In this document: positions 1-16,082 of the stretch, piece by piece
Layout of the letters: every line of letters begins with the position of its first letter
How positions within the stretch are numbered: position 1 is the first letter of the stretch
Assembly (NCBI GenBank): GCA_029907345.1
Contig: JARYMB010000011.1
Location: 1-64,000 of the forward strand
Reading direction: 5' to 3'
DNA length: 64,000 nt
Origin: Methanolinea sp.
GTDB taxonomy: Archaea > Halobacteriota > Methanomicrobia > Methanomicrobiales > Methanospirillaceae
Program-made: the position numbers and the translations under genes
Notes under the pieces: generated by a model
What the model saw: the letters and a program-made list of their open reading frames with translations, nothing else
The model's database searches: none
What the model was told of the DNA's origin: nothing

Positions 1-300
1 GGACCAGGGAACTTCCACGAGACGTATCCTGCATTTCTCGCATGTTACCCGCGGAACACGGCAATGAACGTAAGTCTTGTATTGGAAAAAGTCGAGATGT
101 CGCCATTCTTTCTCGACTGTATCATGGATCTCGCAGTTTTCTTCCCCGCAGTCAGGGCATGAAAATTTTGCTCCCCGTTCGAAGTCAACCCAGATATCCA
201 GGCGTTTTTCTTCCTGTTTGAACTCTATGCGTGAAATATACCACGGTTTTTGGATATTCAGTGCCTGACTGAATATCTGATTCTGGAATTCTGGTCCCAT
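1..300 (-). CDS. ISL3 family transposase, N-terminal part (truncated by window edge)
   Basis: The frame is open from an ATG at 298-300 to the window edge, 100 codons. The product would catalyse excision and insertion of the surrounding IS. The visible part matches the ISL3 N-terminal zinc finger: CPDC at residues 48-51 and CEKC at 87-90, with the WRHLDFFQ block at 66-73 between them, then the R-P-R-V-x-C segment. The DDE catalytic domain would lie beyond the window. Whether the gene is intact cannot be seen. The identification rests on these family motifs and on the ISL3-like end just upstream. Confidence 0.85.
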   Translation of the reverse strand, partial: MGPEFQNQIFSQALNIQKPWYISRIEFKQEEKRLDIWVDFERGAKFSCPDCGEENCEIHDTVEKEWRHLDFFQYKTYVHCRVPRVTCEKCRIRLVEVPWS

Positions 301-339
301 GGATGAGTGTGTGTGTTCCTGGTATTTTGAAAGATTGAG

Positions 340-370
340 CCGCCGCCGGGGCGCCCTTCGGGGGCGGCGG
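340..370. repeat. GC-rich inverted repeat in the IS leader
   Basis: CCGCCGCC at 340-347 pairs with GGCGGCGG at 363-370 around a 15-nt GC-rich loop. It lies between the IS end and the transposase start, so it would form a stable hairpin in any transcript entering from outside. A role in limiting read-through transposase expression is an inference. Confidence 0.6.
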
Positions 371-414
371 AATCATCCTCATGGGGGGTGTGGGGGCGAC
401 CAGTCCCCACATTG

Positions 415-448
415 GGTTCTCATTACCCACTCAGATTAGCGAAGAGCC
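415..448 (-). repeat. Outer terminal repeat of the ISL3 element
   Basis: On the minus strand the sequence starts GGCTCTTCGCTAATC at 448 and runs inward about 30 bp. The GG-C-TCTTCG start is typical of ISL3-family ends. The partner repeat is outside the window. Confidence 0.6.
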
Positions 449-572
449 AAAACTATTGAGTCCAGACGAAAGGAGTGTCTCCCAAAAAGTGCCTCCTGGT
501 CTTGCAAACCGTCGTGGAGAGACCTCATTAAACGATTTTAGGATGCGAAGGAAATCCTATCCAGAGATGAAA

Positions 573-597
573 TATAAACCATATGATGCTACATAAT
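573..597 (+). promoter_or_regulatory. Intergenic AT-rich motif, copy 1
   Basis: The core AAACCATATGATGCTA matches copies at 2083-2105 and 4991-5013. The shared core is AAACCATATRATGMTA. All three lie in plus-strand intergenic space upstream of plus-strand genes. It could be a TATA-containing promoter, a regulator site or a small dispersed repeat. The distance to the gene at 861 is large for a promoter. Confidence 0.45.
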
Positions 598-802
598 CAA
601 AAAACGAGAGATGTCCGAGAATTAACATTTTAAAGGGAGCAACGGCATGTCACTTTTGTATCGTTCCGCCCAAGAGAGACGATGTTTTAATCAATATGGG
701 AATACGCACAGTTATCAGGGTGCTGCCAGTCCGGAAAAACTGCCTGACATAAGAACCGGATTTCCTCATCCCTATAGGTTTAAAAAGAATCTACTCGAAG
801 TA

Positions 803-810
803 CTTATATG
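803..810 (+). promoter_or_regulatory. Probable TATA box for the REC-PAS regulator
   Basis: CTTATATG lies 50 bp upstream of the ATG at 861. This would give a leader of about 25-30 nt carrying the ribosome site at 844-849. No initiator could be confirmed. Confidence 0.4.
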
Positions 811-860
811 CCAATCCCGGTCATTATTCCCGATTGGTTGCCTGGAGGGCATTTTTTCCC

Positions 861-1997
861 ATGATAACGGTCCTGTTTGTAGATGATGAGCCCGCCCTCC
901 TGGACGTCTCGAAACTCTATCTCGAGAAGACCGGGGATATCAAGATCGATACCTGCTATTCCGCGGAGCAGGCATTGGAATGTCTTGGAAGCCGAACCTA
1001 CGATGCAATTGTCTCGGACTACGAGATGCCGGGAATGAACGGGATCGCATTTCTGAAAACCGTTCGGAATCTTGGTATTGAGACCCCTTTCATCATTTTT
1101 ACAGGCAGGGGAAGGGAACAGATCGTCATAGAAGCTCTCAACAGCGGTGCAGATTTTTATCTCCAGAAGGGAGGTGATCCCCGCTCGCAGTTTGCAGAAC
1201 TCGTCCACAAGATACGACTCGCAGTCGAGAGGTTCCGCAGGGAGGGGGCCCTGGAAGTCACACGTTACTCGGTTGAAAGGGCAGGTATTCCGATATTCTG
1301 GTTCGACAGCCGCGGCCGCGTGTTGTACGCAAACTCCTCAGGATGTGCACTCCTTGGATATTCCGTCCAGGAACTCTGCCTCCTCCACATCAGTGACATC
1401 GATCCTTTCTTTTCACTTCCCGAATGGTCACAGTTCATAGAAAGGCTTAAGTCACACGAAAAAATGGAGCTCCACCTCATCATGAGGACAAAGGGGCAAC
1501 AGAACCTGCCGCTGCCGGTCTCCTTTTCCCATGGTGAATTCAGAGGAAAAACCATCATCTTTGCCTATTCATATCCACAAACCGGAAAAGAAAGGAATGA
1601 TACCTGGAAGAAAAGGATGAGTTCTTACCAGTATATGCTTGCCGATGCAATAGCCGGGATTTACATGGAGGTTACGCCTGCTGGTGAAATTATCTTTCAA
1701 AACAGTGCTGCAAGAGCATTTTTTGGTTTCTGCAATCCCGTTGAAACCAGGACGCCTTGCACCCTTTTTGACCTCACCGTGAAGGGACAGCACAGGTCGC
1801 TTGCAGAGGTACTTTCACGTATCCGCGTGGCAGGTGAAGAGGAACTCGTTGAGCTCTCCCTTGTTCGCCATGATGGAACCCCCTGTACGTTTCTTTTCAA
1901 GACAGGAGTATGCCCGGGTCCCCGCGGGATCGATGGAACTTACTTTATTGAGTTCATCCCCCATACTACTATCCAGAAAGGTTCGCGCTCTTCTTAA
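861..1997 (+). CDS. Response regulator with REC and two PAS-like domains
   Basis: A soluble signalling protein of 378 residues. Residues 1-115 form a receiver: acidic pair D8-D9, phospho-acceptor D53 in SDYEMPGMNG, T81 and K103. Two PAS-like sensor segments follow (about 125-235 and 260-370). There is no histidine kinase, HATPase or HTH domain, so output is probably by protein contact. Such REC-PAS proteins are common in methanogens. The ATG at 861 is preferred over an in-frame TTG at 834 because GGAGGG at 844-849 sits 11 nt before it and the protein then begins right at the receiver. It is transcribed alone, with an inverted repeat after its stop. Confidence 0.85.
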   Translation: MITVLFVDDEPALLDVSKLYLEKTGDIKIDTCYSAEQALECLGSRTYDAIVSDYEMPGMNGIAFLKTVRNLGIETPFIIFTGRGREQIVIEALNSGADFYLQKGGDPRSQFAELVHKIRLAVERFRREGALEVTRYSVERAGIPIFWFDSRGRVLYANSSGCALLGYSVQELCLLHISDIDPFFSLPEWSQFIERLKSHEKMELHLIMRTKGQQNLPLPVSFSHGEFRGKTIIFAYSYPQTGKERNDTWKKRMSSYQYMLADAIAGIYMEVTPAGEIIFQNSAARAFFGFCNPVETRTPCTLFDLTVKGQHRSLAEVLSRIRVAGEEELVELSLVRHDGTPCTFLFKTGVCPGPRGIDGTYFIEFIPHTTIQKGSRSS

Positions 1998-2017
1998 AAA
2001 TCCCGAAATTCCGCTCT

Positions 2018-2042
2018 GATATTTATTATATGATGAAATATC
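2018..2042 (+). terminator. AT-rich hairpin after the REC-PAS gene
   Basis: GATATTT at 2018-2024 pairs exactly with AAATATC at 2036-2042 around an 11-nt loop, 20 bp after the regulator stop codon and followed by an A-rich stretch. It may be a weak terminator or an operator for the next gene. The fold is visible, the role is inferred. Confidence 0.3.
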
Positions 2043-2082
2043 GAAAAAAATGCGATTATATGATTATTAAAAAAATTGTTGA

Positions 2083-2105
2083 ATAAACCATATAATGCTA
2101 TATAT
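2083..2105 (+). promoter_or_regulatory. Intergenic AT-rich motif, copy 2
   Basis: The core AAACCATATAATGCTA is followed by TATATTA. It lies about 70-90 bp before the ATG at 2172, a sensible place for a promoter. It shares its core with 573-597 and 4991-5013. Confidence 0.5.
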
Positions 2106-2171
2106 TAGGAGCATAAACACTAACTGACCCCAATCAGTAAAATTAGGGGCTATGGGAGGTAAGACCCGGAA

Positions 2172-2843
2172 ATGCGAACACATTTCGGACAGGATGATGT
2201 GAACAAGTACCGCAAGTTCAAGAAAGTGGATGGAGCCACATACAATAAGGTGAACCAGTTCCTTCGGAAACGAACATACATCACTGCAAGGGAATGGGCA
2301 ATCGCTCGTCTCTGCACCGATTTCCGCACCCGGAGCGGCGCAGAGATGACTTTCATCGGGCAGAACCTTCCCAGGCTCGTGCCTTTCATGCAGGAGACCT
2401 ATTCTCCCCAGGCTGTAAACCAGGCCCGTAACTCATTCAAAAAGAAGGTCTACAAGTCCGGTGCAACGTTCTTCTATGGGGCAATGTGTGGCTTTTTTAC
2501 AAGTGAGGAGCTCGATGACCTCCTCTTCGAGGCGAGCGAAGTTGCCCGTTTCCTCCTCGAGGTTGAGAGGACTTCTCTCGAGATAGATGAGGAAATAGAG
2601 ATAGAAGACCGCATCACGGAGGTCATGAGAAGTGTCGGGAAAGCGGCAGCCCACATACTCAATACGCGAATGCAGGAATATGAGACTGGTTCACCAACGG
2701 AAGAAAGAGGGGCGGGGGCCCTCCCACAGGATACCAACGATAACAAGAACGCGGGGTCAACCCTTCAAGGTGAGAACGTCGACAGGGACGAGGTAAAATC
2801 CCCCCTGCAGGAAGGATACGACAAAGAGGGGGACCCTGCATGA
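2172..2843 (+). CDS. Conserved archaeal protein of unknown function (DUF5806-like)
   Basis: A 223-residue protein with a basic, helical N-terminal half and an acidic, low-complexity tail after about residue 165. From memory the segment running from the KFKK motif through the REWAIARLC and FTSEELDD motifs resembles the DUF5806 family of haloarchaea and methanogens, which has no known function. The GLPRL/QAVNQAR region looks compatible with a nucleic-acid-binding helical domain, but no catalytic motif is visible. A strong ribosome site GGGAGGT at 2154-2160 supports the ATG. The stop overlaps the mobB start as ATGA, so the two genes are translationally coupled, although nothing links their functions. 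Confidence 0.7.
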   Translation: MRTHFGQDDVNKYRKFKKVDGATYNKVNQFLRKRTYITAREWAIARLCTDFRTRSGAEMTFIGQNLPRLVPFMQETYSPQAVNQARNSFKKKVYKSGATFFYGAMCGFFTSEELDDLLFEASEVARFLLEVERTSLEIDEEIEIEDRITEVMRSVGKAAAHILNTRMQEYETGSPTEERGAGALPQDTNDNKNAGSTLQGENVDRDEVKSPLQEGYDKEGDPA

Positions 2844-3613
2844 AAGTTATCCATGTCTGCGGAGAGTCGGGTTCGGGGAAAACAACCCTTATCCGCAGCC
2901 TCATTCCTCTCCTCGCAGACAAAGGGACCGTGGCCGTGGTCAAACACCTCGGGCACCATTCGTTTTCACTTCCGGAAGGGAAGGATACGACATTCTATCT
3001 CGAATCAGGCGCTGCAATCTCTGCAGGAATTGATCCCGGAAAAACAGTTCTTGTCGCTGATACAGTTTCCCTCCGGACCGTTCTGGATATTCTTTCTTTT
3101 TCCGGCACTTCGTTTGCAATCGTGGAGGGTTTCAAGTCCCTCCCGTTACCCAAAGTTGTGATGGGGACATTAAACTCTGCCCAAAACGTTGTCCTCGATA
3201 ATCCCCGACCCGGGGATATCATCAATTCCCTGGGGAAATTTCCGGACTACATCACGTACTGCGACCTGGCAAGGGATCTCTGGGCTGACGGACTCATTGC
3301 GTTGACCGGTTCCCTCCCGGCTGATTCATCCCTGATGTCTCCCCGGGAAAGAAGAGAGTTTTATGACCGTTTTTTCCCAATGATACATGATATGACAGAG
3401 GAGGATTGGGGCGTTCCCAACGCATTCAGGGTGAGAGTCCATCTTTACCAGGGACTCTATTTTGGAGGGGATGACAGGGTGATCTACGCTGCGGGAGGTC
3501 CGACACCGGGTGGTGTCCAGTGTGTGGTTCCAAGAGTCCTTGAACGCATAGTACTCATGCTAAAAACTGCTCTGCATGGCGAAGGAGAGATTCATGCAAC
3601 TGAAAAAAATTGA
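2840..3613 (+). CDS. mobB: MobB-type P-loop GTPase with extended C-terminal part
   Basis: Residues 1-150 match molybdopterin-guanine dinucleotide biosynthesis protein MobB: Walker A GESGSGKTT at 8-16, then VVKHLGHH and an acidic VEGFK segment typical of the family. MobB assists attachment of the nucleotide to molybdopterin, which methanogens need for formylmethanofuran and formate dehydrogenases. The protein is about 100 residues longer than minimal MobB. The extra C-terminal domain ends in a FRVRVHLYQGLYFGG block that I do not recognise. The gene overlaps the upstream gene by 4 bp and glmM by 20 bp. Confidence 0.75.
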   Translation: MKVIHVCGESGSGKTTLIRSLIPLLADKGTVAVVKHLGHHSFSLPEGKDTTFYLESGAAISAGIDPGKTVLVADTVSLRTVLDILSFSGTSFAIVEGFKSLPLPKVVMGTLNSAQNVVLDNPRPGDIINSLGKFPDYITYCDLARDLWADGLIALTGSLPADSSLMSPRERREFYDRFFPMIHDMTEEDWGVPNAFRVRVHLYQGLYFGGDDRVIYAAGGPTPGGVQCVVPRVLERIVLMLKTALHGEGEIHATEKN

Positions 3614-4949
3614 AAAAAGGCTCTTTGGAACCAACGGTGTAAGGGGTATTGCAGGGACTGAAATGACCCCCGGGTTGGCCCTCAAAATCGGGCTTGCACT
3701 GGGAACGATGCGGCCTGGAACGGTTGCCGTTGGGAGGGACACCCGGATTTCCGGGCCGGCGCTTGTCAGTGCCTTGAAGGCAGGTATCCTTGCAGCAGGC
3801 TGCGACGTGGTCGACTGTGGTATCCTTCCGACCCCGGCTCTCCAATTCCTTGTCAGGAGACACTTTGATGCAGGAGCCGTCGTGACCGCATCCCACAACC
3901 CGCCTGAATACAACGGCATTAAGGTGGTGGAACCTGACGGGACTGAAATGGGCGATGAAGAGAGCATCGCTCTTGAAAAGCACATATTCGAGGAGACTTC
4001 ACGGATTGTCTCCTGGGAGAGAACCGGACGCGAGCGCTCTGCTCCCTCTCTCGTGGAAGAGTATGTTGACGCTATAGTCCGTGCTTTTCCCCCCTGCATC
4101 GGTGAAGGAATGCCCGTTGTTGCAGACCCGGGATGCGGTGCAGCAGCTGCCACTACACCGGAAATACTCAACCGTCTGGGCTGCAGGGTCTTTTCTCTCA
4201 ACTGCCAGATGGACGGGACATTTCCCGCAAGGCCTCCTGAACCTTCTGCCCAGGGTCTCCTGCCTCTTGCCGATCTCGTGAAAACAACGGGCGCATGTTT
4301 TGGTGTTGCCCATGACGGGGATGCAGACCGTGCTGTCTTTGTGGACGAGAAAGGGCGTTTTATCGAAGAGAATGTGGAATTTGGCCTTATTGCCGACCAC
4401 GTGTGCCAGGGGAGGAAGGGGGTCATTGTCACTCCCGTCAGCACATCCCGGATCATAGAAGTTATCGGAAAGAGACACGGGTGTCGGGTTGTCTACACGC
4501 CCGTGGGGAGCATTTACGTGGCAAGGACGATGATTTCCCTTGCTGCACAGGGGATCCCGGTCGTATTCGGAGGAGAGGGGAACGGGGGACTGATTTTTCC
4601 CGGTCACCAGCTCTGCAGGGACGGGGGGATGACTGCAGCGACCATGGTCACGCTCCTTGCCCGTAAAGGAGAGCCTCTGTCCTCGCTCGTGAATGCGATG
4701 CCGCATTTTGCCCTAATCAAGGACAAGTTCAGGGAAAAAGATCCACGGGGCCTGGTTGGACGACTTGTGGATCATTATTCCGGGGAGAACCTGGACCTGA
4801 CTGATGGCATAAGGATCAACAGGGGTGACTCATGGGCCCTTGTTCGTCCTTCAGGTACCGAGCCCCTGGTACGCGTGATGGTCGAGTCTGAATCTGAAGA
4901 GAGAGCAGAGCAGTTCTACAAGGAAATAATGAGCCTTATTCAGAGATAG
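3594..4949 (+). CDS. glmM: Phosphoglucosamine mutase
   Basis: Interconverts glucosamine-6- and -1-phosphate for UDP-GlcNAc, the precursor of surface glycans. The protein has 451 residues, normal for the alpha-D-phosphohexomutase family. Visible motifs are the phosphoserine loop TASHNP with catalytic S100, the metal loop DGDADR at 241-246, the sugar loop GGEGNGG near 322 and the phosphate loop RPSGTEP near 421. The ATG at 3594 is chosen over 3576 because GGAGAG at 3584-3589 sits just before it. Archaeal members can also act on other hexose phosphates. The overlap with mobB implies co-transcription. Confidence 0.9.
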   Translation: MQLKKIEKRLFGTNGVRGIAGTEMTPGLALKIGLALGTMRPGTVAVGRDTRISGPALVSALKAGILAAGCDVVDCGILPTPALQFLVRRHFDAGAVVTASHNPPEYNGIKVVEPDGTEMGDEESIALEKHIFEETSRIVSWERTGRERSAPSLVEEYVDAIVRAFPPCIGEGMPVVADPGCGAAAATTPEILNRLGCRVFSLNCQMDGTFPARPPEPSAQGLLPLADLVKTTGACFGVAHDGDADRAVFVDEKGRFIEENVEFGLIADHVCQGRKGVIVTPVSTSRIIEVIGKRHGCRVVYTPVGSIYVARTMISLAAQGIPVVFGGEGNGGLIFPGHQLCRDGGMTAATMVTLLARKGEPLSSLVNAMPHFALIKDKFREKDPRGLVGRLVDHYSGENLDLTDGIRINRGDSWALVRPSGTEPLVRVMVESESEERAEQFYKEIMSLIQR

Positions 4950-4990
4950 AGGCATTTTTTTCGCTTATCCGGAATACACTTATCTCTTCA

Positions 4991-5013
4991 TTATAAACCA
5001 TATAATGATATAC
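4991..5013 (+). promoter_or_regulatory. Intergenic AT-rich motif, copy 3
   Basis: The core AAACCATATAATGATA, preceded by TTAT, matches copies at 573-597 and 2083-2105. It lies about 100 bp upstream of the acylphosphatase-like gene. A 7-bp hairpin follows at 5064-5085. Confidence 0.5.
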
Positions 5014-5063
5014 TCCTAATGCTCATCTCGGATGGAAACGCAAATAAAAGATGGCGTGGCAGA

Positions 5064-5085
5064 TACACCAAAGGTCTCTGGTGTA
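5064..5085 (+). promoter_or_regulatory. Leader hairpin before the acylphosphatase-like gene
   Basis: TACACCA at 5064-5070 pairs exactly with TGGTGTA at 5079-5085 around an 8-nt loop. It lies between motif copy 3 and the start codon at 5109. A regulatory role is unproven. Confidence 0.3.
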
Positions 5086-5108
5086 ATCGTTCCGGGGAGC
5101 CAGCGGTA

Positions 5109-5384
5109 ATGAAGACCATCGAGATACGAATTACCGGAAGAGTTCAAAAAGTGGGTCTACGAAATTGCATCCGGCATATCGCCGGGAAACTCTGCATTAA
5201 GGGGGAGGTCATGAATCTTCCCGATGGATCCGTGAAGATCGTGGCAAGTGGCGATCCCCTGACCCTCGACAAGTTCTCTTCCATGATTTACGGGTGCCCG
5301 CGGGCCCTTGTCAGGGAGATGGAGATATGCGAGATACCCTTCAGGTCATTCGCTGACTTTTCTGTCGTGCGTTCCATTGAATGA
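5109..5384 (+). CDS. Acylphosphatase-like protein
   Basis: A 91-residue protein of acylphosphatase length and fold signature, a family that hydrolyses carboxyl-phosphate bonds. The GRVQKVGLRNC block corresponds to the family motif G-x-V-Q-G-V-x-F-R and keeps the phosphate-binding Arg, while the usual G and F are changed to K and L. The catalytic Asn is kept in VMNLPDGSV. The ATG at 5109 is preferred because the family fold starts there; the upstream in-frame ATG at 5019 adds an unrelated leader. Its 3' end overlaps the convergent cas1-like gene by 39 bp. Divergence at the active loop makes activity uncertain. Confidence 0.7.
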   Translation: MKTIEIRITGRVQKVGLRNCIRHIAGKLCIKGEVMNLPDGSVKIVASGDPLTLDKFSSMIYGCPRALVREMEICEIPFRSFADFSVVRSIE

Positions 5385-6350
5385 ATGCGGCTCTGGTATG
5401 TGGATGATAAAATCGGTCTTTTTCATCAGGGATTCCCTGAGAGAGAGAACATGAGAATCAATGATATCCTGTCTGATCGTCCGGACGAGCCTCTGCAGGA
5501 GAGAATGCACAAGTTCATCTGACAGGATGCACCGGTCCGGACCACACTCGAACCCCCCGGGTAAAAGCCCCTCCCTCACAAAGGAACAGACGGGGTCATC
5601 GATCATTGCCGGTCTGAAGGGGTCACAAAGATCGTGGACGAGTCCGGCCTTACCCCGCGTTAGAAAACCAATTTCGGGGTCGAGGTGTGCCCCGATTACC
5701 GCAACGCACATGTTTCCGAAGAGGAGCCCATACCCGAACGAAAGGAGGGTATTGACGACGTCCGTGTGAGGCCGGGATGTCCGGCGGCGGAAACCAAGGT
5801 CGGCAGGAATAGTACGGGCAAGGATCTCGTAATACATGTCAGAGATGAGCCTGTGCACCCTCCTGACCTCTTCGAGGCGGACGAGATAATCGAGTTCTGA
5901 AACGCTTTTTTCGAGGACTTCAAGCTCCCCCTCGTAAAAGAGGGGATGATCCAGGTCCTCCTGCAACCTGACGAGATAGAGAATCCTGGCATGGGCACTT
6001 CCCTTTGCAATTGCAAGTGCAGGAGAGTGAGGAAATGCCCTGACCTGGGCCTCACGGACGTTTTCGTCGTATTGAAAGCCATAAGGTCGGAGGAATCCAA
6101 GCGGTTCTCCATCTGCTTCGAAAAAGGAGACTGCACATCCTGCAGAGAGGAGACGGGAAACAACCGATGTATGGAGAGTATGGCCCCCCATGACAAGGAG
6201 GTGCCTGATTGCAGACAGAGGAATCTCTTCAGTACAGCCACGCTTCTGCACTATCAGGATCCGGGGCGTTGCCTTGATATGCGCCCCGAATCCAGATACC
6301 AGATACCAGGGAATGGTCTCTATAACACTCTTCTCCTTGCTGCTCTGCAT
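5346..6350 (-). CDS. Stand-alone divergent Cas1-like protein
   Basis: A 334-residue protein with the Cas1 two-part layout: a beta-rich N-terminal domain (about 1-95, with LVMGGHTLHTSVVSRLLSAG resembling the Cas1 dimer region) and a helical catalytic domain. Aligned by eye to Cas1, the metal ligands map to E160 in VRLEE and to D240 and D243 in LVHDLCDPFRP. The expected His in the GF-(L/V)-H motif is T231 (IGFLTRG). In CRISPR integrases that His is essential. No cas2, CRISPR repeat, polymerase or inverted repeat is visible nearby, so it is neither a CRISPR locus nor a casposon. Solo Cas1 groups are known from Methanomicrobiales. Function is unknown. Confidence 0.8.
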   Translation of the reverse strand: MQSSKEKSVIETIPWYLVSGFGAHIKATPRILIVQKRGCTEEIPLSAIRHLLVMGGHTLHTSVVSRLLSAGCAVSFFEADGEPLGFLRPYGFQYDENVREAQVRAFPHSPALAIAKGSAHARILYLVRLQEDLDHPLFYEGELEVLEKSVSELDYLVRLEEVRRVHRLISDMYYEILARTIPADLGFRRRTSRPHTDVVNTLLSFGYGLLFGNMCVAVIGAHLDPEIGFLTRGKAGLVHDLCDPFRPAMIDDPVCSFVREGLLPGGFECGPDRCILSDELVHSLLQRLVRTIRQDIIDSHVLSLRESLMKKTDFIIHIPEPHSFNGTHDRKVSE

Positions 6351-6616
6351 CCTGGGAAGACTCTCTATGTTACTCTCTTGCCGGACATAAATACATCAAT
6401 GCATCGTTTCTCCCAGGAAAAATAGGCGTGTCACCCACACGGGATCCAACCCTTTCCATGCCATGACACAACCTGGCAATATTTTTCATCCTTTGACGCA
6501 AGTTTATGAAAAAGGTACCTGGTATTCACCAGATATTACCTCTCGTGTTCATGATGGGGTGGATAAATTCGTGAAAAACGGTGAAAATATGAGAGAAAAA
6601 TGGGAGACTGTTAATC

Positions 6617-7909
6617 ATGTTTTGGGATGAGAAATACGAGACACTTCCCAAGAAAGACCTTGGACGTCTCCAGCTGAAACGTCTTAAAAAGACGCTCGCC
6701 CATGTCCAGAATGTGAATTTTTACAGGAGACTGTTCAAAGATACAGGTATCAGACCGGGGGATATAAAAAGCCTCGATGATGTCAGGAAATTACCCTTTA
6801 CAAGGAAACAGGACCTCCGCGACGGGTACCCTTTTGGTTTTTTTGCCGTTCCTCTCACCAAGGTTGTTCGCATCCATACCACATCCGGAACGACAGGGAA
6901 ACCGACCGTCGTCGGTTATACAAAGAAGGATCTCCGTACATGGGCAGGCCTGATAGCGCGGAACATGACCATGGTGGGGCTTTCTGACCAGGATATCTTC
7001 CAAAACATGGTCAATTACGGTATGTTCACGGGGGGGCTCGGCTTCCATTACGGTGCAGAACTTATCGGAATGACAGTGATACCAAGTGCCACCGGAAACA
7101 CCCGCCGGCAGATAGAGATGATCCAGGACTTTGGGGTCACTGTGATCCATTGCACCCCAAGTTATGCCCTTCATCTTGCAGAAGTTGCCGAGGAGATGAA
7201 TGCACGCCTCGACTCGCTAAAGACAGGATTATTTGGCGCTGAACCCTGGTCCGACTCGATGCGCAGGGAACTGGAGAACAAGCTCAACGTCACTGCATAC
7301 GACTCTTACGGGCTTTCTGAGTTATTCGGTCCGGGTGTCGCATTCGAGTGTAAAGAGAGGGATGGACTCCACATCTGGCATGATTGTTACCTTGTCGAGA
7401 TTATCGATCCTGCGACAGGAGAGGTTCTTGGAGAGGGTGAACGCGGGGAGATGGTCGTTACCCCGCTTGTCAAGGAGGCTATGCCACTCATCAGATACCG
7501 CACCGGCGATATTACAATGCTCTACGAGGATGGATGCATATGCGGGCGCGGGCAGAAGATCGCACGTATAATGGGAAGAAGTGATGACATGCTGGTTATC
7601 AGGGGGATCAATGTGTTTCCATCGCAGATAGAACATGTGCTTTTGGGAATTCCCGAGGTGGGTAACCAGTTCATGGTCTACGTGGACAGGGTTAACCACC
7701 TCGATGAGATGACGATAGACGTTGAGATCAACCGGGATTTCTTCTCGGGAGAACTCAAGGATCTTGCCAGAATCCAGAACAAGGTTGTCAAGGCACTTCG
7801 TGATGCCCTCGAACTCAGGACAACGGTCCGGCTCGTGGAACCCGGCTCTCTGCCCCGGTTCGAGGGCAAAGCAAAACGGGTTGTGGACAGGAGGAAAGAT
7901 TGCCTATGA
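6617..7909 (+). CDS. paaK: Phenylacetate-CoA ligase family protein (first of a pair)
   Basis: An adenylate-forming enzyme of 430 residues that activates an aryl acid, probably phenylacetate or indoleacetate, to its CoA thioester. The AMP-binding P-loop TSGTTGKP lies at 89-96. The YDSYGLSE and RYRTGD motifs and the C-terminal PRFEGKAKRV segment carry the usual family residues. Archaeal PaaK proteins often pair with 2-oxoacid:ferredoxin oxidoreductases of aromatic amino acid metabolism. It is the first gene of a three-gene operon, coupled by ATGA to a second homologue. It may work in salvage of aryl acids for amino acid synthesis; the substrate is an inference. Confidence 0.85.
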   Translation: MFWDEKYETLPKKDLGRLQLKRLKKTLAHVQNVNFYRRLFKDTGIRPGDIKSLDDVRKLPFTRKQDLRDGYPFGFFAVPLTKVVRIHTTSGTTGKPTVVGYTKKDLRTWAGLIARNMTMVGLSDQDIFQNMVNYGMFTGGLGFHYGAELIGMTVIPSATGNTRRQIEMIQDFGVTVIHCTPSYALHLAEVAEEMNARLDSLKTGLFGAEPWSDSMRRELENKLNVTAYDSYGLSELFGPGVAFECKERDGLHIWHDCYLVEIIDPATGEVLGEGERGEMVVTPLVKEAMPLIRYRTGDITMLYEDGCICGRGQKIARIMGRSDDMLVIRGINVFPSQIEHVLLGIPEVGNQFMVYVDRVNHLDEMTIDVEINRDFFSGELKDLARIQNKVVKALRDALELRTTVRLVEPGSLPRFEGKAKRVVDRRKDCL

Positions 7910-9210
7910 CAAGAGCGTGGGACCCGCGGATCGAGGAAATGCCTCTCGAAAACCTGAAAAAGCTCCAGTATACACTGCTTAAGACACTCGTTTACCGCCT
8001 GTACAGTTTCTCAGCGTTCTATCACCGGCGTATGGAGGAGGCAAAAGTCCATCCTGATGATATCCGGACGCTCGAAGATATCCAGAAGCTTCCTTTCATG
8101 TATAAACGGGATCTCAGGGACAACTACCCTGATAAGCTATTCATTGCATCCCAGGAAGATCTGGTCAGGTACCACGTCTCCTCGGGTACCACCGGAAAGC
8201 CCACGGTCGTTGGTTATACCGAACGGGATCTTGAAAACTGGACTGTCTCGCTTGCGCGCGCCCTCGTCTCGTGTGGCCTTGGAAGGGGTGACGTTATCCA
8301 GGTGAGCTATGGATATGGTCTTTTTACCGGGGGACTCGGACTCCATTACGGGGCTGAGCGTATCGGAGCAACGGTTCTTCCCACAAGCGTTGGAAACACG
8401 GAACGCCAGATCGAGCTCATGCAGGATCTCGGGGCCACGGCCATTGCCTGCACACCATCTTACCTCCTCCATATCGGAGAAGTTGCAGAGAAAATGGGGA
8501 TCAGCATCAGAAAGGACACGAAACTGAAAACCGGTATCCTGGGAGCAGAACCCTGGTCTGAGAACATGCGCCAGCGTATCCAGGACTGGCTCGGAATAAA
8601 GGCATATGACATATACGGAACAAGTGAGCTCTCCGGCCCGATGTTTTGTGAATGTACGGAGCAGAGAGGATTCCATGTCTGGGGAGACCTTGCGTATGTC
8701 GAAATCCTCGATACTCAAACACAGGAACCGCTACCGCCAGGAGAACGCGGTGAGATGGTCATCACCATGCTGCAGAAGGAAGCCATGCCTCTGATCAGGT
8801 ACAGGATCGGTGACATCAGCTCCATCGAGGAGGATGTGTGCCCCTGCGGCAGGACGCATCCCCGTGTCCAGAGGATAACAGGGAGGGTTGACGATATGCT
8901 GATTATCCGTGGGATCAACGTCTTCCCGTCCCAGATTGAATATGCCCTCATGACCATTCCCGAGGTCGGCCAGCACTTCCAGATAATCGTCGATCGGAAG
9001 GGGGCACTCGATGACATGCTCGTCCAGGTGGAGGTCGCCCAGGAGGCTTTCTCCGACAAGATTACAGATCTCATGGGGATACGGAAAAAGGTCGAGCACA
9101 AATTGCGCAACATTCTCAATGTTGGTGTGAACGTGGAACTGGTCGAACCGGGGTCACTCCCGCGGTTCGAAGGGAAAGCAAAGAGGGTTATTGACAGGAG
9201 AAAGATCTGA
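7906..9210 (+). CDS. paaK: Phenylacetate-CoA ligase family protein (second of a pair)
   Basis: A paralogue of the preceding enzyme, 434 residues, with the same signatures: SSGTTGKP near residue 88, YDIYGTSELSGP, RYRIGD and the C-terminal PRFEGKAKRV segment. The two probably arose by tandem duplication and differ most in the N-terminal third and in the acid-binding region, so they may use different aryl acids. The ATG at 7906 overlaps the stop of the first gene as ATGA and has AGGAGGA 10 nt upstream; an in-frame TTG at 7900 is possible. The ACT protein follows after 1 bp. Confidence 0.85.
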   Translation: MTRAWDPRIEEMPLENLKKLQYTLLKTLVYRLYSFSAFYHRRMEEAKVHPDDIRTLEDIQKLPFMYKRDLRDNYPDKLFIASQEDLVRYHVSSGTTGKPTVVGYTERDLENWTVSLARALVSCGLGRGDVIQVSYGYGLFTGGLGLHYGAERIGATVLPTSVGNTERQIELMQDLGATAIACTPSYLLHIGEVAEKMGISIRKDTKLKTGILGAEPWSENMRQRIQDWLGIKAYDIYGTSELSGPMFCECTEQRGFHVWGDLAYVEILDTQTQEPLPPGERGEMVITMLQKEAMPLIRYRIGDISSIEEDVCPCGRTHPRVQRITGRVDDMLIIRGINVFPSQIEYALMTIPEVGQHFQIIVDRKGALDDMLVQVEVAQEAFSDKITDLMGIRKKVEHKLRNILNVGVNVELVEPGSLPRFEGKAKRVIDRRKI

Positions 9211-9211
9211 C

Positions 9212-9646
9212 ATGGGAGTCAACAGGTTCGTCATCAAGCAGATATCGGTCTTTTCGGAGAACAAACCCGGAAGGTTGGCAGCAATCGCCCGGGCGCTGCA
9301 GGAAGAGCAGATTAATATCCTCGCCTTTTCAATTGCCGAGGCAGACGGGTTTGGTGTTGTGAGGGCACTCGTGGACAGCCCGCAGAAAGCACATGAAAAA
9401 CTTACAAAGATGGGGTTCAACGTCGCTTTCACCGACGTTATTGCCGTCCAGATGAAGGATGAACCCGGTGGTTTATACGAGATTGCAAAAATTCTCGGGC
9501 AGGGGGGAATAAACATCGAATATGCCTATGCATACTCAGGTAAGGAAGGCGCCGTTCTCATTCTGCGGGTCGACAATGTCGAGGCAGCAATCGCTGCAGT
9601 CCGGAAAGGTGGTGCTAAACTGCTCGAGAGTTCCCTCTTCCAGTAA
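9212..9646 (+). CDS. Tandem ACT-domain protein
   Basis: A 144-residue cytoplasmic protein made of two ACT domains (about 5-70 and 75-140), each starting with a strand and a P-G-x-L-type loop (NKPGRLAAIARAL; DEPGGLYEIAKIL). ACT domains bind amino acids. Without a fused enzyme this is likely an allosteric sensor or subunit for the two PaaK enzymes. Many archaeal paaK genes are followed by such a gene. The ATG at 9212 is 1 bp after the paaK stop; the longer in-frame start at 9191 would lie inside paaK. Confidence 0.85.
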   Translation: MGVNRFVIKQISVFSENKPGRLAAIARALQEEQINILAFSIAEADGFGVVRALVDSPQKAHEKLTKMGFNVAFTDVIAVQMKDEPGGLYEIAKILGQGGINIEYAYAYSGKEGAVLILRVDNVEAAIAAVRKGGAKLLESSLFQ

Positions 9647-9652
9647 TTTCTC

Positions 9653-10945
9653 CTATTTTTTTTCCCAGCGGATGAGGTCTGATACACGGGAGAGGGTACT
9701 TCCCCTCCGGATCTCCTCCCGGATCCTCTCCTCTGTCTTCTTTACCTCGAGTGCCCTTCGTGCGACCTCTGCGGCACGTTCGCGGGGGATGACGACAACC
9801 CCGCTCGCATCTCCCGCAATCCAGTCTCCCGGCCGCACGGTCTGGCCTCCGCACCTGACCTCTGCATTGATCTCCCCAAACCCTTTCGGCTCCCCGGCAT
9901 TTGGTGTTACTGCCCGCGCAAAAACCGGGAACCCAAGACGCCGGATATCATCGATATCCCGTGCCGCGCCGTCAATAACGACACCGGAAAGGCCGCGTTT
10001 CATCGCACTCATCGTGGCGAGTTCTCCCCAGCATGCAACGTGTATCGCGCCATCATTGTTGATTACCAGCACATCACCGGGTTCCGCGATGTCAATTGCT
10101 TCAACAGGTTTTGCCCAGTCTCCCGCAAACCCCTGAACCGTGACAGCCCGTCCGGCCATCCTTGCTTCACCGCAAAGGGGGATTATCCCGGCCATCGCCC
10201 CCTTCCTGTGCATGGCATCAGAGATGTTGGGGGTCGACACCGATGAGAGTATGTCCCGGACTGTACTTTCCGCCGGAGGTCTTCTCCTTCTGATGAGTGT
10301 GGGATCGTCCAGGGCTGCACGTACCTGCCGTGCTGATGCCGTTACATCGGCCGACTTGGTGATCGCACTCCCCACAATCACGATGTCCGCCCCTGCAGCA
10401 GCTGCCTGCGGTGCCGTTGTTGCATCGAGGCCCCCGGCTGCGGCAAGGGGTATTGCTATCTCATTTCGTATGGCTGACAGCACGTCCAGGGGGCTCTTTC
10501 CTCTCATCTGCTGGTCGATCCCGACATGGGCATTGACGATGTGAACACCCATCTGTTCCAGTTCCCGGGAACGGGCAACAGGGTCAGGTACGCTGATCAG
10601 GTCACCCATCAGCCTGACACCATAGAGATCCGCTGCCCTTACCGCTTCAGCTATCACGGCGTCATCCGAACCGGCAAGGATGCAAACAACAGACGCACCT
10701 GCTTTTGCTGCCATCTCCACCTCGAGCGCCCCCGTGTCAGCGATCTTCATATCGGCCACGATCTCGCGGCCGGGAAACATGGCGCGGAGAGTCCGGACCG
10801 CCGCCATACCTTCGCTTTTGATAAGTGGCGTTCCTGCCTCGAGCCAGTCAACACCTCCTGAAACTGCCTCTGCAGCGATCTGGACTGCCCGATCAATCTC
10901 TGTGATATCGAGTGCAACCTGCAGGATTGTCCTCTTCTCGCTCAT
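9653..10945 (-). CDS. Bifunctional 3-hexulose-6-phosphate synthase / RraA-like protein
   Basis: A two-domain fusion of about 430 residues. The N-terminal half (about 1-215) is an orotidine-decarboxylase-fold hexulose-phosphate synthase, with [12 protein letters not shown] and NAHVGID motifs and a phosphate-binding GGLDA/VGSAI region. It would make or use ribulose-5-phosphate and formaldehyde, the archaeal route to pentoses. The C-terminal half (about 225-425) is an RraA/dimethylmenaquinone-methyltransferase-like domain, whose relatives include aldolases and an RNase E inhibitor; archaea lack RNase E, so a metabolic role is more likely. The start is uncertain: ATGs at 10993 and 10969 extend the same frame. 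I chose 10945, next to the domain start. Confidence 0.85.
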
Positions 10946-11026
10946 AAGACTTTTTCCGGTCTCTGTCATTCCCGGTTCACCGGATGGCCCCATCGGAAAT
11001 TAGTCCCCTGTGCTGGCAGCCCCGCC

Positions 11027-11533
11027 TTAATCCTCACTGAAGGTGTCAAAAAATGTCACATCACCGAGTATCTTCTTCTTCTGCACTGCAACCTCGGCCG
11101 GGTAGCCCGCAGCCACGAGTGAGACAAGTGTATATTTCTCAGGTACGGAAAGGAGCTTCCGTATATCATCTGCATACGGCTTTTTATCACCGGCTACCCA
11201 GCAGCTCCCGATTCCATATGCCCACAATCCGAGGATAAGGTTCTCTGTTGCCGCACAACAATCCTCAAGGTAGTATTTTGCGCTCTTTTCTCCGAATATG
11301 GCAAAGCAGACCGCTGCATCAGCTATGAACTTCCCGTGATCTGCAATTCCGGCAATCTTTTCGAGAAGAGCCCTGTCGCGGACGACACCAAAAAGCCAGG
11401 GTTGCAGGTTCATCGCTGTCGGGGCCTGCCGGGCACACTCGAGTACGTCGCGAATCACGTTCTCCTCGACGGGGTCCGACTTGTATTTCCGCACACTGTG
11501 CCGTGACTTGATGATAGTGGTGCCGACGTTCAT
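11027..11533 (-). CDS. Nitroreductase family protein
   Basis: An FMN-dependent oxidoreductase of 168 residues. RHSVRKYKSDPV near the N-terminus and the LQPW segment are the usual FMN contacts, followed by GIGSCWVAG and a C-terminal GYPAE. The reductant and substrate are not predictable; methanogen members are often annotated only by family. The ATG at 11533 fits the family start, while an in-frame ATG at 11584 touches the upstream gene and lacks a ribosome site. It lies in a minus-strand run after the DUF3821 protein. Confidence 0.8.
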   Translation of the reverse strand: MNVGTTIIKSRHSVRKYKSDPVEENVIRDVLECARQAPTAMNLQPWLFGVVRDRALLEKIAGIADHGKFIADAAVCFAIFGEKSAKYYLEDCCAATENLILGLWAYGIGSCWVAGDKKPYADDIRKLLSVPEKYTLVSLVAAGYPAEVAVQKKKILGDVTFFDTFSED

Positions 11534-11584
11534 GGAAATCCCATCGGTGCCAGAGGAAAAAAAAGTGACTCTTCTTATGGCCAT

Positions 11585-12586
11585 CTAAGGGGGGTTGTTT
11601 CCCTGGTACTGCCTGCGTTGACGGAAAACGAGGCCCACGCATAATGCAAGGAAAAGGGTTGCCGGAAGGAGGCCGGGCGCCCGCGTTGGTGTCGTTGACT
11701 CCGTGGGGGGAACGGTTTCCGCAGTCGACGGAACTGTCGTCATGACTGACGTTTGGATAGCAGTTCCGGTCTCCAAAAGACCAGTCGGCCGAGGGGTTGC
11801 TATGACGGGTGTTGCAGTCTCCGTGACCGCCGTTGTTGTTACGGTCGTAATCAGGGGATTGACTTTCTGGAGAAGGAACCGGACCTGCTCGCTCTCCGAT
11901 TTTCCCTCCACGGGATAATTGTCATGCATCTCGTTTGCCTCGCACCGCACGGATACCGTGTAGTCTCCTGTGGGAAATTCCCCCGAACCCGTCGCCCAGA
12001 CCGGACCGCTCTCGAATGTGGGGGTGGAGACCACTACGTCTCCAAGTCTGTATTCACCGAGGGAAGAAAATGACAGGCCGCCGGGTCCGGTGATATCTAT
12101 TGTAAGGGGGACTCCCGCGCAACCCTGGCGGCGGGAGAAGACCCAGAGGTTTGAATCGATCCGAAAACCGATGGTATCACCCTTGGGAACCCAGGTAGCA
12201 TCCCTGCCGACCACAAACCCGGAGGTATAGTCAATGATACGCACCTGGATCGTGGGATCCCCGACGTAGAAAGCCAGGTTGTTTTCCGGAAGGATGAACC
12301 AGGGACCTGTTTTCCCCAAAAAGACAGATGGTGCAACGTAAAAAGAGGACGGATCCGCTATTGTCACCTGCGCGGCAGGCACACTGGATACACTGCCTCC
12401 CGGTCCGTAGTAAGCAATCTGCGATCCCGCGGTCAGTCCCGTTCCGGTTACATCGAGGCCCTCTTCACCGATGAAGACCCATTCCCCTGCCGGAATTGTC
12501 CCACATGCTGCCATCGCGGGTAATACAAGGGAGAGGAGAATAAGGACAGGAATGCCGGAAAGACGGGCAATATGTACTTTGTTCAT
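11585..12586 (-). CDS. Surface protein with DUF3821-like domain
   Basis: An exported protein of about 333 residues. It has an N-terminal signal peptide (hydrophobic segment ending LVLPAMAAC), a beta-rich ectodomain with an IPAGEWVFIGEEGLDVTG opening typical of the DUF3821 family found in Methanomicrobiales, a Thr/Pro-rich stalk (about 245-305, a likely glycosylation region), one membrane helix (LLPATLFLALCVGLVF) and a short basic tail. It is probably anchored in the cytoplasmic membrane below the S-layer. Ligand and function are unknown. The start could also be 12601. It directly precedes the nitroreductase frame with no gap. Confidence 0.8.
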   Translation of the reverse strand: MNKVHIARLSGIPVLILLSLVLPAMAACGTIPAGEWVFIGEEGLDVTGTGLTAGSQIAYYGPGGSVSSVPAAQVTIADPSSFYVAPSVFLGKTGPWFILPENNLAFYVGDPTIQVRIIDYTSGFVVGRDATWVPKGDTIGFRIDSNLWVFSRRQGCAGVPLTIDITGPGGLSFSSLGEYRLGDVVVSTPTFESGPVWATGSGEFPTGDYTVSVRCEANEMHDNYPVEGKSESEQVRFLLQKVNPLITTVTTTAVTETATPVIATPRPTGLLETGTAIQTSVMTTVPSTAETVPPTESTTPTRAPGLLPATLFLALCVGLVFRQRRQYQGNNPP

Positions 12587-12646
12587 ACGGTGGAATGGCA
12601 TGGGGCCTGATTAATACCTTTCTCCTGCTGCCTGGGTGGATGATGG

Positions 12647-13861
12647 TCATCCCGGGATGAGCCCCGTGATACCATTCCACATGTTCGAGAACCCCTGGGA
12701 TATGAGGATGGTAGGGTCAATTCCAAGAATCGGGAATATGAAGATGAAGTAGAGGATTGTCCCGAGTGTGCTGCCCAGGTTGGCAAGTGCGGCTACGAGT
12801 ACGACCCTGAAAATGGGGACCTTCATCATGGCCGAAAAACTTTCGGCCTCGAAAACCTTCCGGAAATCAGCGGGGGTCGGTTTCCGGATTTTCGCCTCCA
12901 CAATTGCGGCAAACCATCCAGCTGCAATGAGAGGATTCAAGGCCGTGAACCAGGATACCCCAAACCCGGTGAGAGCGGAGAGGGGATGGCCGCGCGCGGC
13001 GAGCGTGAAGACAGCGGTTAGAACACCATGGAGGAGAACCCAGTATATCAGAGCAGAAAAGAGGACCTCTATTCCTACGCCGGAAAATGCAATGGCAAGG
13101 AGAAGAAGGACGAAGAGTGCTGTCACCCCGGCGCCGAAGATCTTTCCCCATGGACGGGACCTGATATCCGCATCCAGTTCTTGCCTGGAGAGAATCTCCC
13201 CGGGAGATGCAAGCAGCCTTTCGACACCGGCCACGTGGCCTGCACCGAGGACAGCAAGTATCCTGGTGTGCCGTTCTTTCAGGATTGCGAGGTTGTGTGC
13301 GAGGTACGCGTCCCGTTCATCAATGAGGGCGCGGGCACCGTTGGGAGAAAATTTCCGGAACTCCTCCATCGCCATGCTGACTACATCCTCCTTTTTCAGC
13401 TCCTCGACGTCTATCTCCTCGGAATCAACTGTGGCCAGTGAGAGGACAAGGGCATACAGGAGTTTCAGTTTCTCGAAAAAGGAGAGTGTATTCCAGAACC
13501 TCCTCAGTGTAATACCGATATCCCTGTCAATGAGGGCAACGGGGATGTTCCTTTTTTCAGCCTCCTCGATTGCTGCCTTCATCTCTGCGCCGGGTTCAAC
13601 TCCCATATCAAGGCCGATCCGCCTCTGCAGGTATGCGAGTATCCACTGCACAAGGAGCTGGGTGAAGTTCTTTGCTTCGAGAACATCTTTGACAGACGGG
13701 TCACGTGCCTGTTTTTTGAGAGCGGCATACCTTGCAGGGTCGAGCTCGACTGCGACGACCTCCGGAGAGAACTCCTCTATTGCAGACCGGACTTCCTCAA
13801 CACTTTTCGCAGAAACGTGTGCCGTACCAACAATCCGCAGTGTTCCCGTCACTGCATGCAC
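12647..13861 (-). CDS. TraB/PrgY-family membrane protein
   Basis: A 404-residue protein. The N-terminal TraB domain (about 1-235) keeps GTAHVS at 12-17, VELDPARY near 39 and GAGHVAGV near 225, residues shared with pheromone-shutdown TraB/PrgY and Tiki proteases. The C-terminal part has about four membrane helices (about 240-395). Family members are thought to be metal-dependent membrane proteases or inhibitors of signalling peptides; the archaeal role is unknown. Translation starts on GTG at 13861, overlapping the upstream gene by 13 bp, with a GGAAGGG ribosome site inside that gene. Confidence 0.85.
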   Translation of the reverse strand: MHAVTGTLRIVGTAHVSAKSVEEVRSAIEEFSPEVVAVELDPARYAALKKQARDPSVKDVLEAKNFTQLLVQWILAYLQRRIGLDMGVEPGAEMKAAIEEAEKRNIPVALIDRDIGITLRRFWNTLSFFEKLKLLYALVLSLATVDSEEIDVEELKKEDVVSMAMEEFRKFSPNGARALIDERDAYLAHNLAILKERHTRILAVLGAGHVAGVERLLASPGEILSRQELDADIRSRPWGKIFGAGVTALFVLLLLAIAFSGVGIEVLFSALIYWVLLHGVLTAVFTLAARGHPLSALTGFGVSWFTALNPLIAAGWFAAIVEAKIRKPTPADFRKVFEAESFSAMMKVPIFRVVLVAALANLGSTLGTILYFIFIFPILGIDPTILISQGFSNMWNGITGLIPG

Positions 13862-14400
13862 ACCCCTTCCCCATCAACGAGATATCTTCCCGGTCCGGGA
13901 GGAATCGTGGGAAAAACAGCCTGGATCCGACGGATCTCCTCTTCCTCTTCGGCCCTCCTGGTAAGAAGGTCGCGGGCAATGCGGACGGCGTCCTCTCTTG
14001 AAATGGGTTTTCCCAGCCCTCTGCAGGGATAAATCCGCAACTCGCTTCCTTCAAGCATGAAGGGGTACGTCCTGCAGATCGAGGGTCTCACCGGGTAAAC
14101 CAGGCACGAAGAGCCGGATAAAAAGCGACAATCGCCATAAAAACGCCTCAATGCCCGCCCGAATGTAACGGTGCGGTCGCCCGGAAGCGTTACGGTGTCA
14201 GGGTACGGCTCAGCGATATCGGTGGCCTCAAGACCGGAGAATTCCGAAATGGCCCTTATTTCCCGGGGAAAGACCATCACGAGGTTGTCGTCCCCGGCAC
14301 CGGGCCTGCAGCAGTCCCCGCACCGGGTGCATGAGAAACCTATTCTTTTGATCTCTCTGGCAAGGTTACTCTCTTCATCCCGGCAATCCTCGCGCGTCAT
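13849..14400 (-). CDS. YkgJ-family cysteine-cluster protein
   Basis: A 183-residue protein with the YkgJ (UPF0153) arrangement: CTRCGDCC in the first 35 residues and CRFLSGSSCLVYPVRPSICRTYPF in the middle. The clustered cysteines probably hold zinc or an Fe-S centre. Biochemical function is unknown. The ATG at 14400 overlaps the stop of the GMP synthase subunit as ATGA, which favours it over the in-frame ATG at 14418. Its own 3' end overlaps the TraB gene. The three genes form a coupled run with no evident common pathway. Confidence 0.85.
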   Translation of the reverse strand: MTREDCRDEESNLAREIKRIGFSCTRCGDCCRPGAGDDNLVMVFPREIRAISEFSGLEATDIAEPYPDTVTLPGDRTVTFGRALRRFYGDCRFLSGSSCLVYPVRPSICRTYPFMLEGSELRIYPCRGLGKPISREDAVRIARDLLTRRAEEEEEIRRIQAVFPTIPPGPGRYLVDGEGVCMQ

Positions 14401-14960
14401 ATCCCGTACTCCCTGCAAATCATGTCAAAGTTCTGGTATACCCTTTTTCCGTCTTTCGTGTGACTGACTTCGGGGTGCCATTGCAAACCAAAAATATTCC
14501 TTTCCGGGCATGCTATGGCTTCATGCGCGCACACACCGGAGCGCGCGAGGAGACGGAATCCCGGGGGTATTTCTGTAACCTCATCGGCGTGCGAAGCCCA
14601 AACGAGTATTCTCTCGGGGTAGCCCTCGAGGATTCCCGATCTCTCCACCAGCTCCACCTCGACCGGTCCATATCCCCCCATGCGGCCCGGGGCAACCCGC
14701 CCCCCGAACTCCCTTGCAATGATATGAAGGCCAAGGCAAATCCCGAGGACAGGGATCCCAAGATGGAGGAAGAGGGGGGAATTACCGCACTTAGCGATGT
14801 CAGGACCACCCCCGAGAACAATGCCCCGGCACGAGCCTGCCACTTCCTCCGGGGAAAGTGTATTCTGGATCATCCGCGCATCGATGCCCAGGTCGCGGAA
14901 CATCCTCAGGATGAGGTGATTGAATTGCCCGAAATTATTGACGACGAAGATGGGGAGCAT
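14397..14960 (-). CDS. guaAA: GMP synthase, glutamine amidotransferase subunit A
   Basis: A class I glutamine amidotransferase of 187 residues that supplies ammonia for conversion of XMP to GMP. In archaea this subunit is separate from the synthetase. The catalytic triad is visible as C75 in LGICLG and the His and Glu of WHPEV near residue 162. The synthetase gene (guaAB) is not adjacent in this window. It is the first gene of a coupled minus-strand run (guaAA, ykgJ-like, traB-like). Confidence 0.9.
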   Translation of the reverse strand: MLPIFVVNNFGQFNHLILRMFRDLGIDARMIQNTLSPEEVAGSCRGIVLGGGPDIAKCGNSPLFLHLGIPVLGICLGLHIIAREFGGRVAPGRMGGYGPVEVELVERSGILEGYPERILVWASHADEVTEIPPGFRLLARSGVCAHEAIACPERNIFGLQWHPEVSHTKDGKRVYQNFDMICREYGI

Positions 14961-15062
14961 GATTCTTCACAAATGTGGCGCTTAATAGGTGAAAATGTCT
15001 CTGCTGCAAGTGTTGACCATCCGGAAAAAAGAGGTCAGCATTGCGGACCGAACCCTTGACTT

Positions 15063-16082
15063 TCACTGGTAGGAGGATACAGTCCCGAGGATCTTTTTCC
15101 TGATATCCTGGGGGGAATGACCCATGATAGCAGCAAGGAACATTGCGCCACCTGCCCCCATCCCCTCTTTTACTTCCCCGATGCAGTACCGTGCAAGGCC
15201 GGCATGTCCCAGATCCCCGAATCCCGGGTCAACATAGGCAACCGGGACGCCAATGCGATTGGCCACCTCGGAGAAATTGGCAGACGGGTCGTCCCTTACG
15301 TAGACAGTCGTGGCAATCACGGGAAGTGGAATTGAGAGAGATTTCATGAGGGCTGCAACGGCGAGCATCTGGGTGCCGCCCGCAAGCACAAGCCTGCTCC
15401 CCCTGTTCCCATATCCCATCCCGATACCGGCACAGAGGGGGATCATGGGGTCACCGCATAACCGGGCTGCATCGAGTTGGGAAAGAGGCATGTTGTCAGC
15501 TATCCGCCGAAATACTGCTTCCCAGACCGCTTCCTTCATCCCGACCGGGTTGTCCGCGTAACTCGAACTGACCCGGGCAGGATATCCCAGCGCACGGAGC
15601 ACACAGAGGGCAGTTGTTGTGCCTCCGGGGACGCACTCCCCGATAACGAGCACGTCACACATTCGCGAGAGCATTGCCCCGATGATGCGTCCCTCCTCAA
15701 AAAGGTCTGCGGTACGGGGAACGGCATCCGTTGAACGGGGATCCTGTCCTGGTTCCCCATAGACGTCCAGACAGGGCACGGTGGGCCGGTGAACAAGCCC
15801 TGCGTTAATAAAGAGGGGGATTATCCCGCACATGTCCATCATCGCCCGCGTGATGGATGCAGGAGTCGGGCATCCTGTCGGAGTATCCGGTCGTGAGGGC
15901 ATGCTCGTTATCTTTCCCCGGAGAACCAGTTCTGCGTCGAGGATCGGGGTAAAAAGGGTTTTTTCCGGGCTCGGACCTGCACCAGATATCCCGGGAACGA
16001 CGGAAAGCATTGTATTGGCTAGGACTACTGCGAAAAGAGGTTTTTTGGGTGAAAGTGAAAAGTTGTCTGAAATGAACGTCAT
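15063..16082 (-). CDS. cobT: Archaeal nicotinate-nucleotide-dimethylbenzimidazole phosphoribosyltransferase (CobT-like)
   Basis: Activates the lower-ligand base to an alpha-ribotide for corrinoid assembly. The 339-residue protein belongs to the archaeal CobT branch (TIGR00303-like), with VIGECVPGGTTTAL, the Gly-rich GAGIGMGYGNRGS and the LAGGTQM segment. Methanogens need the corrinoid for methyl-H4MPT:coenzyme M methyltransferase. The gene is divergent from cobZ-cobS on the other side of a 190 bp spacer, so the three corrinoid genes may share a control region. The start ATG at 16082 is the only good one. Confidence 0.85.
   Translation of the reverse strand: MTFISDNFSLSPKKPLFAVVLANTMLSVVPGISGAGPSPEKTLFTPILDAELVLRGKITSMPSRPDTPTGCPTPASITRAMMDMCGIIPLFINAGLVHRPTVPCLDVYGEPGQDPRSTDAVPRTADLFEEGRIIGAMLSRMCDVLVIGECVPGGTTTALCVLRALGYPARVSSSYADNPVGMKEAVWEAVFRRIADNMPLSQLDAARLCGDPMIPLCAGIGMGYGNRGSRLVLAGGTQMLAVAALMKSLSIPLPVIATTVYVRDDPSANFSEVANRIGVPVAYVDPGFGDLGHAGLARYCIGEVKEGMGAGGAMFLAAIMGHSPQDIRKKILGTVSSYQ

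Follow-up and report, generated by a model that had tools for sequence, protein, structure and literature searches.

The 64-kb stretch of Methanolinea sp. DNA analysed here (the window) carries a gene, cas1-solo, whose product we consider, with a probability of roughly 60%, to be a vertically inherited, domesticated and non-catalytic Cas1 of the Methanomicrobiales acting outside CRISPR. This reading is based on homology, the predicted fold, the loss of the Glu and His ligands, the presence of the gene throughout the order, purifying selection and its occurrence in genomes devoid of Cas2. A dead CRISPR integrase would in that case be kept as a core gene by a whole methanogen order, and given such retention a role of Cas1 beyond immunity and transposition seems likely.

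Pfam, NCBIfam and PADLOC each identify the cas1-solo ORF of the window as a homologue of Cas1 over its full length. Its match to PF01867 (Cas_Cas1; E 2.9e-50, 171.5 bits for a cut-off of 22.3) lies far beyond chance, and the Cas1-like protein proposed by an earlier, sequence-only reading is thus a real homologue. The protein also passes TIGR00287 ('CRISPR-associated endonuclease Cas1') with 135 bits for a cut-off of 71.7, so that automated annotation can give it this name in a genome without CRISPR; counts of CRISPR based on Cas1 in the Methanomicrobiales may be inflated by cas1-solo. Structure prediction, which had been suggested as a check, retrieved the Cas1 fold. The AlphaFold model, built with 58 orthologues as input, has a mean pLDDT of 90.3 and a pTM of 0.88, and all 50 Foldseek matches listed are Cas1 structures or complexes containing Cas1, among them 2yzs, deposited as uncharacterised, which we take to be a Cas1. 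The best fold match is A. fulgidus Cas1 (4n06, E 2e-19, TM 0.78), and the casposase 6opm reaches a TM of up to 0.81.

Table 1. The cas1-solo gene, the parts of its product and the neighbouring genes (nucleotide positions in the window; residue numbers for protein parts).
Feature	Position	Strand	Remarks
cas1-solo gene, 334 aa	5346..6350	-	ORF call, Pfam, NCBIfam, alignments, AlphaFold
Cas1-solo protein, beta domain	residues ~16-95		
Cas1-solo protein, helical domain	residues ~96-310		
Cas1-solo protein, degraded active site	H166/T231/D240/D243		
Acylphosphatase (PF00708)	5019..5384	+	convergent to cas1-solo, with a 39-bp overlap of the 3' ends
PaaK-like phenylacetate-CoA ligase 1	6617..7909	+	divergent neighbour of cas1-solo
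PaaK-like phenylacetate-CoA ligase 2	7900..9210	+	tandem with ligase 1
Archaeal GlmM phosphoglucosamine mutase	3576..4949	+	flank conserved in 76/119 loci

To locate the active site, the protein was aligned pairwise with solved Cas1 structures, and 73 orthologues were aligned together with 12 Cas1 paralogues. In both cases the canonical catalytic Glu corresponds to H166, the canonical His to T231 and the acidic pair to D240 and D243. The His-to-Thr change and the two retained Asp ligands, first noticed by eye, are borne out by these alignments, but the catalytic Glu had been placed at E160, a residue that is D, P, S or Q in many orthologues and lies six residues upstream of H166. Since the Glu aligns to H166, two of the four ligands are lost and not a single one as had been claimed. 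The EHD(D/E) quartet is found in 0/73 solo orthologues; it is intact in all 12 paralogues and in each of the 78 CRISPR or casposase-like Cas1 of the phylum. The active site of the M. mazei casposase consists of E162/H232/E247 (PMC6977970).

Constraint in the solo proteins is found at other residues: H57, E142, R164, Y174, E175, R179, R273 and C274 are present in 73/73 solos and mostly differ in other Cas1, which makes this list a direct target for mutagenesis. R164 stands two residues before the old Glu position, where most other Cas1 have Gly, and one may speculate from the sequences that a salt bridge with D240 takes the place of the metal; such a bridge, if present, could explain why D240 stays invariant. 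The mean net charge of the solos is also shifted, being -4.6 (30 proteins), whereas 33 other Cas1 from this order average +2.7 (p about 1e-8 in a Mann-Whitney test, a value only indicative because the compared sequences are related). This acidic charge argues against simple non-specific DNA binding; plain DNA coating is less likely, and the binding of a specific nucleic acid, a protein or a small ligand remain options. A more far-reaching reading, less likely than not, is that the Cas1 fold was exapted in an ancestor of the Methanomicrobiales to become a near-universal housekeeping protein, in which H57/E142/R164/YYE173-175/R179/RC273-274 would form a new site for non-nuclease chemistry or specific partner binding. 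It appears unlikely that the protein is a re-engineered enzyme proper, having abandoned the metal site for a new catalytic or ligand pocket made of H57, E142, R164, Y173/Y174, E175, R179, R273 and C274. A 73/73 invariant set of His, Glu, Arg, Tyr and Cys is unusual for a pure scaffold and the charge shift fits a non-DNA substrate, but no known catalytic motif was recognised among the solo-specific invariant residues, these are scattered across both domains, and structural or interface roles account equally well for their invariance.

At the old metal site the four positions behave differently among the 73 solos. D240 is present in all of them and D or E at 243 in 67, and this pair may still bind a metal, a possibility drawn from the sequences which weighs against a dead site. 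H166 is shared by 44/73, and S, F, Y, N and Q also occur there; position 231 holds H in 37/73, with R, S, N, Y, T and more elsewhere and H, S or T inside the window's own genus. Both positions are above the median entropy of the alignment columns (57th percentile for 166, 69th for 231) and have changed at least 14 and at least 21 times, respectively, on the orthologue tree. The Thr at 231 is thus not fixed across orthologues, as it had been proposed to verify, and a fixed Thr as signature of the solo family is ruled out. Such free drift indicates relaxed constraint rather than a retuned active or metal site. A metal-dependent nuclease of altered specificity, in which D240, D/E243 and substitute ligands such as H166 would hold the metal, agrees with the frequencies of these residues; the drift at 166 and 231, the lack of any new fixed quartet in the solos and the inactivity of E. 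coli Cas1 nuclease with alanine at any quartet residue (cited in PMC4046053) make it improbable. The changed nuclease specificity offered by the sequence-only reading is therefore not supported, and its alternative of a structural, non-nuclease role fares better.

The window protein lacks the intact E-H-D-(D/E) site of a CRISPR Cas1 integrase, and its gene, the sole Cas1 match in the assembly, has neither cas2 nor an array at its locus. As had been reported, the window holds no cas2, the single Cas2 match of the genome being on another contig, nor was a CRISPR array seen in the 64 kb. The reported absence of CRISPR repeats is true of the window only: elsewhere in the genome an array (L002, G000:C15:20542-22235; repeat containing CATTTCAATCCTATTTTAGTCC, 8 exact copies of the 22-mer) adjoins the Cas2 match at the end of contig C15. 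Outside the window, the source genome consequently possesses a CRISPR system, whose own Cas1 is probably absent from the 88%-complete assembly. In related genomes, a crude repeat scan of 122 loci gave no confirmed array beside cas1-solo, and the adjacent CRISPR locus that would have spoken against a stand-alone gene was not confirmed. Besides L002, four loci were flagged, of which L065 and L134 were inspected: in L148 and L172 the repeats lie more than 4 kb from cas1-solo, the repeat in L065 measures 48 bp, lies upstream of the gene and was read as coding, and in L134 (3200-3440) the repeat is a 52-bp tandem duplication giving several repeats of the 3' end of the gene. Among 21 good genomes carrying cas1-solo, chosen for having one match, Cas2 is present in none and 19 have no other Cas1, which indicates that cas1-solo does not need CRISPR. 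A subunit that regulates CRISPR adaptation or acts as a decoy in it, for example through heterodimers with CRISPR Cas1, would suit the retained fold and the CRISPR-type Cas1 that many Methanomicrobiales genomes additionally carry, but the retention of the gene where Cas2 and mostly any other Cas1 are missing, away from any confirmed array, makes it very improbable.

The gene was found in 194/199 Methanomicrobiales genomes (131/132 of those of good quality), always with E 2.2e-38 or better. In a sample of the phylum, the 45 Methanomicrobiales genomes all scored at least 326 bits and the 202 genomes outside the order at most 121 bits, none of the latter reaching the solo range; of the three strongest matches outside the order, the two that were read (L236, L246) have an intact active site. 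In one genome without a match (G151) true absence is doubted, since the acylphosphatase lies 285 bp from a contig end and loss of cas1-solo in the assembly is likely. No relative was found in a viral contig collection, and viral carriage was dropped. The ORF is open in 80/80 named loci, so that the frame breaks expected of decay, which were looked for, are lacking, and dN/dS is about 0.07-0.30, indicating purifying selection. Decay into a pseudogene is dismissed by the intact frames and by dN/dS values well under 1, and the earlier proposal of a fold kept by selection is upheld. In the Cas1 tree, 23/23 solos form a single clade (SH-aLRT 100, stem of 2.05 changes per column), separate from the casposase-like clade. 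One MAG (PtaB.Bin056; G163, contigs C67 and C101) has two copies (L100, L118), each sharing about 67% identity with the window protein, and is possibly a mixed bin.

The conservation of the acylphosphatase and paaK flanks, another point raised for verification, was seen across 119 loci, which are mostly syntenic: acylphosphatase lies on one side of cas1-solo, with GlmM beyond, and the paaK genes on the other side. Acylphosphatase directly adjoins cas1-solo in convergent orientation in 84/119, and the 3' ends of the two genes often overlap; in the window its true start may be an internal ATG near 5109, the PF00708 domain beginning at about residue 31. The flanking genes are housekeeping genes without obvious mechanistic link to cas1-solo, and the synteny is mainly evidence of vertical inheritance. 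Within the conserved flank, a DUF5806 protein (2172-2843, +) is encoded directly upstream of MobB and GlmM. Further along, an ORF (9653-10993, -) encodes an orotidine-phosphate-decarboxylase/HUMPS domain fused to an RraA-like domain.

As a domesticated Cas1, the solo protein would retain the two-domain fold and probably the dimer, and would have lost the metal-dependent nuclease and integrase chemistry. Its part would be that of a non-catalytic chromosomal factor unconnected with CRISPR, whose solo-specific residues most likely make up a surface for binding a nucleic acid or a protein. With CRISPR Cas1 (A. fulgidus 4n06, Synechocystis 7cr6) it shares the two-domain fold and the R190/N200/D240/D251 framework. 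In contrast to these, the Glu is lost, the His variable and the cas2 partner missing, and the protein is acidic with its own invariant residues.

Among stand-alone Cas1, Krupovic et al. 2014 (PMC4046053), with reference to Makarova 2013, describe a Cas1-solo group 1, restricted to Methanomicrobiales without horizontal transfer, none of whose members has a complete active site; it was set aside as probably inactive (PMC4046053; 2023 review PMC9939771). The window gene fits this description by its host order, its lack of CRISPR linkage among housekeeping neighbours, its distribution and synteny without sign of horizontal transfer, the lack of a full quartet and a clade of its own in a tree that does not include the published members by accession, and nothing in it contradicts membership. 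No later functional work on the group was found in a literature search outside which most subscription papers lay, and we regard the gene as a further member of a known group. The active-site assignment, the relocated constraint, the independence from CRISPR, the acidic charge shift and the orthologue numbers are new relative to the published description.

The casposase of M. mazei (6opm, Cas1-solo group 2) resembles the window protein in its Cas1 fold and in being encoded away from CRISPR. The casposase-like Cas1 differ from the solos in retaining EHDE, in falling into a clade apart and in their length of about 400 aa. The window gene has neither the intact site nor the casposon setting: no polB or HNH gene was identified among the flanking genes, and positions 1-16000 gave no clear terminal inverted repeats, only short, imperfect and scattered inverted pairs. 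A casposon is therefore rejected, in agreement with the stand-alone, non-casposon Cas1 first described. Methanomicrobiales genomes that also carry cas1-solo encode, at L223 and L224, a Cas1 measuring about 420 aa in which EHDE is intact and which groups with casposase-like proteins from another family of the phylum.
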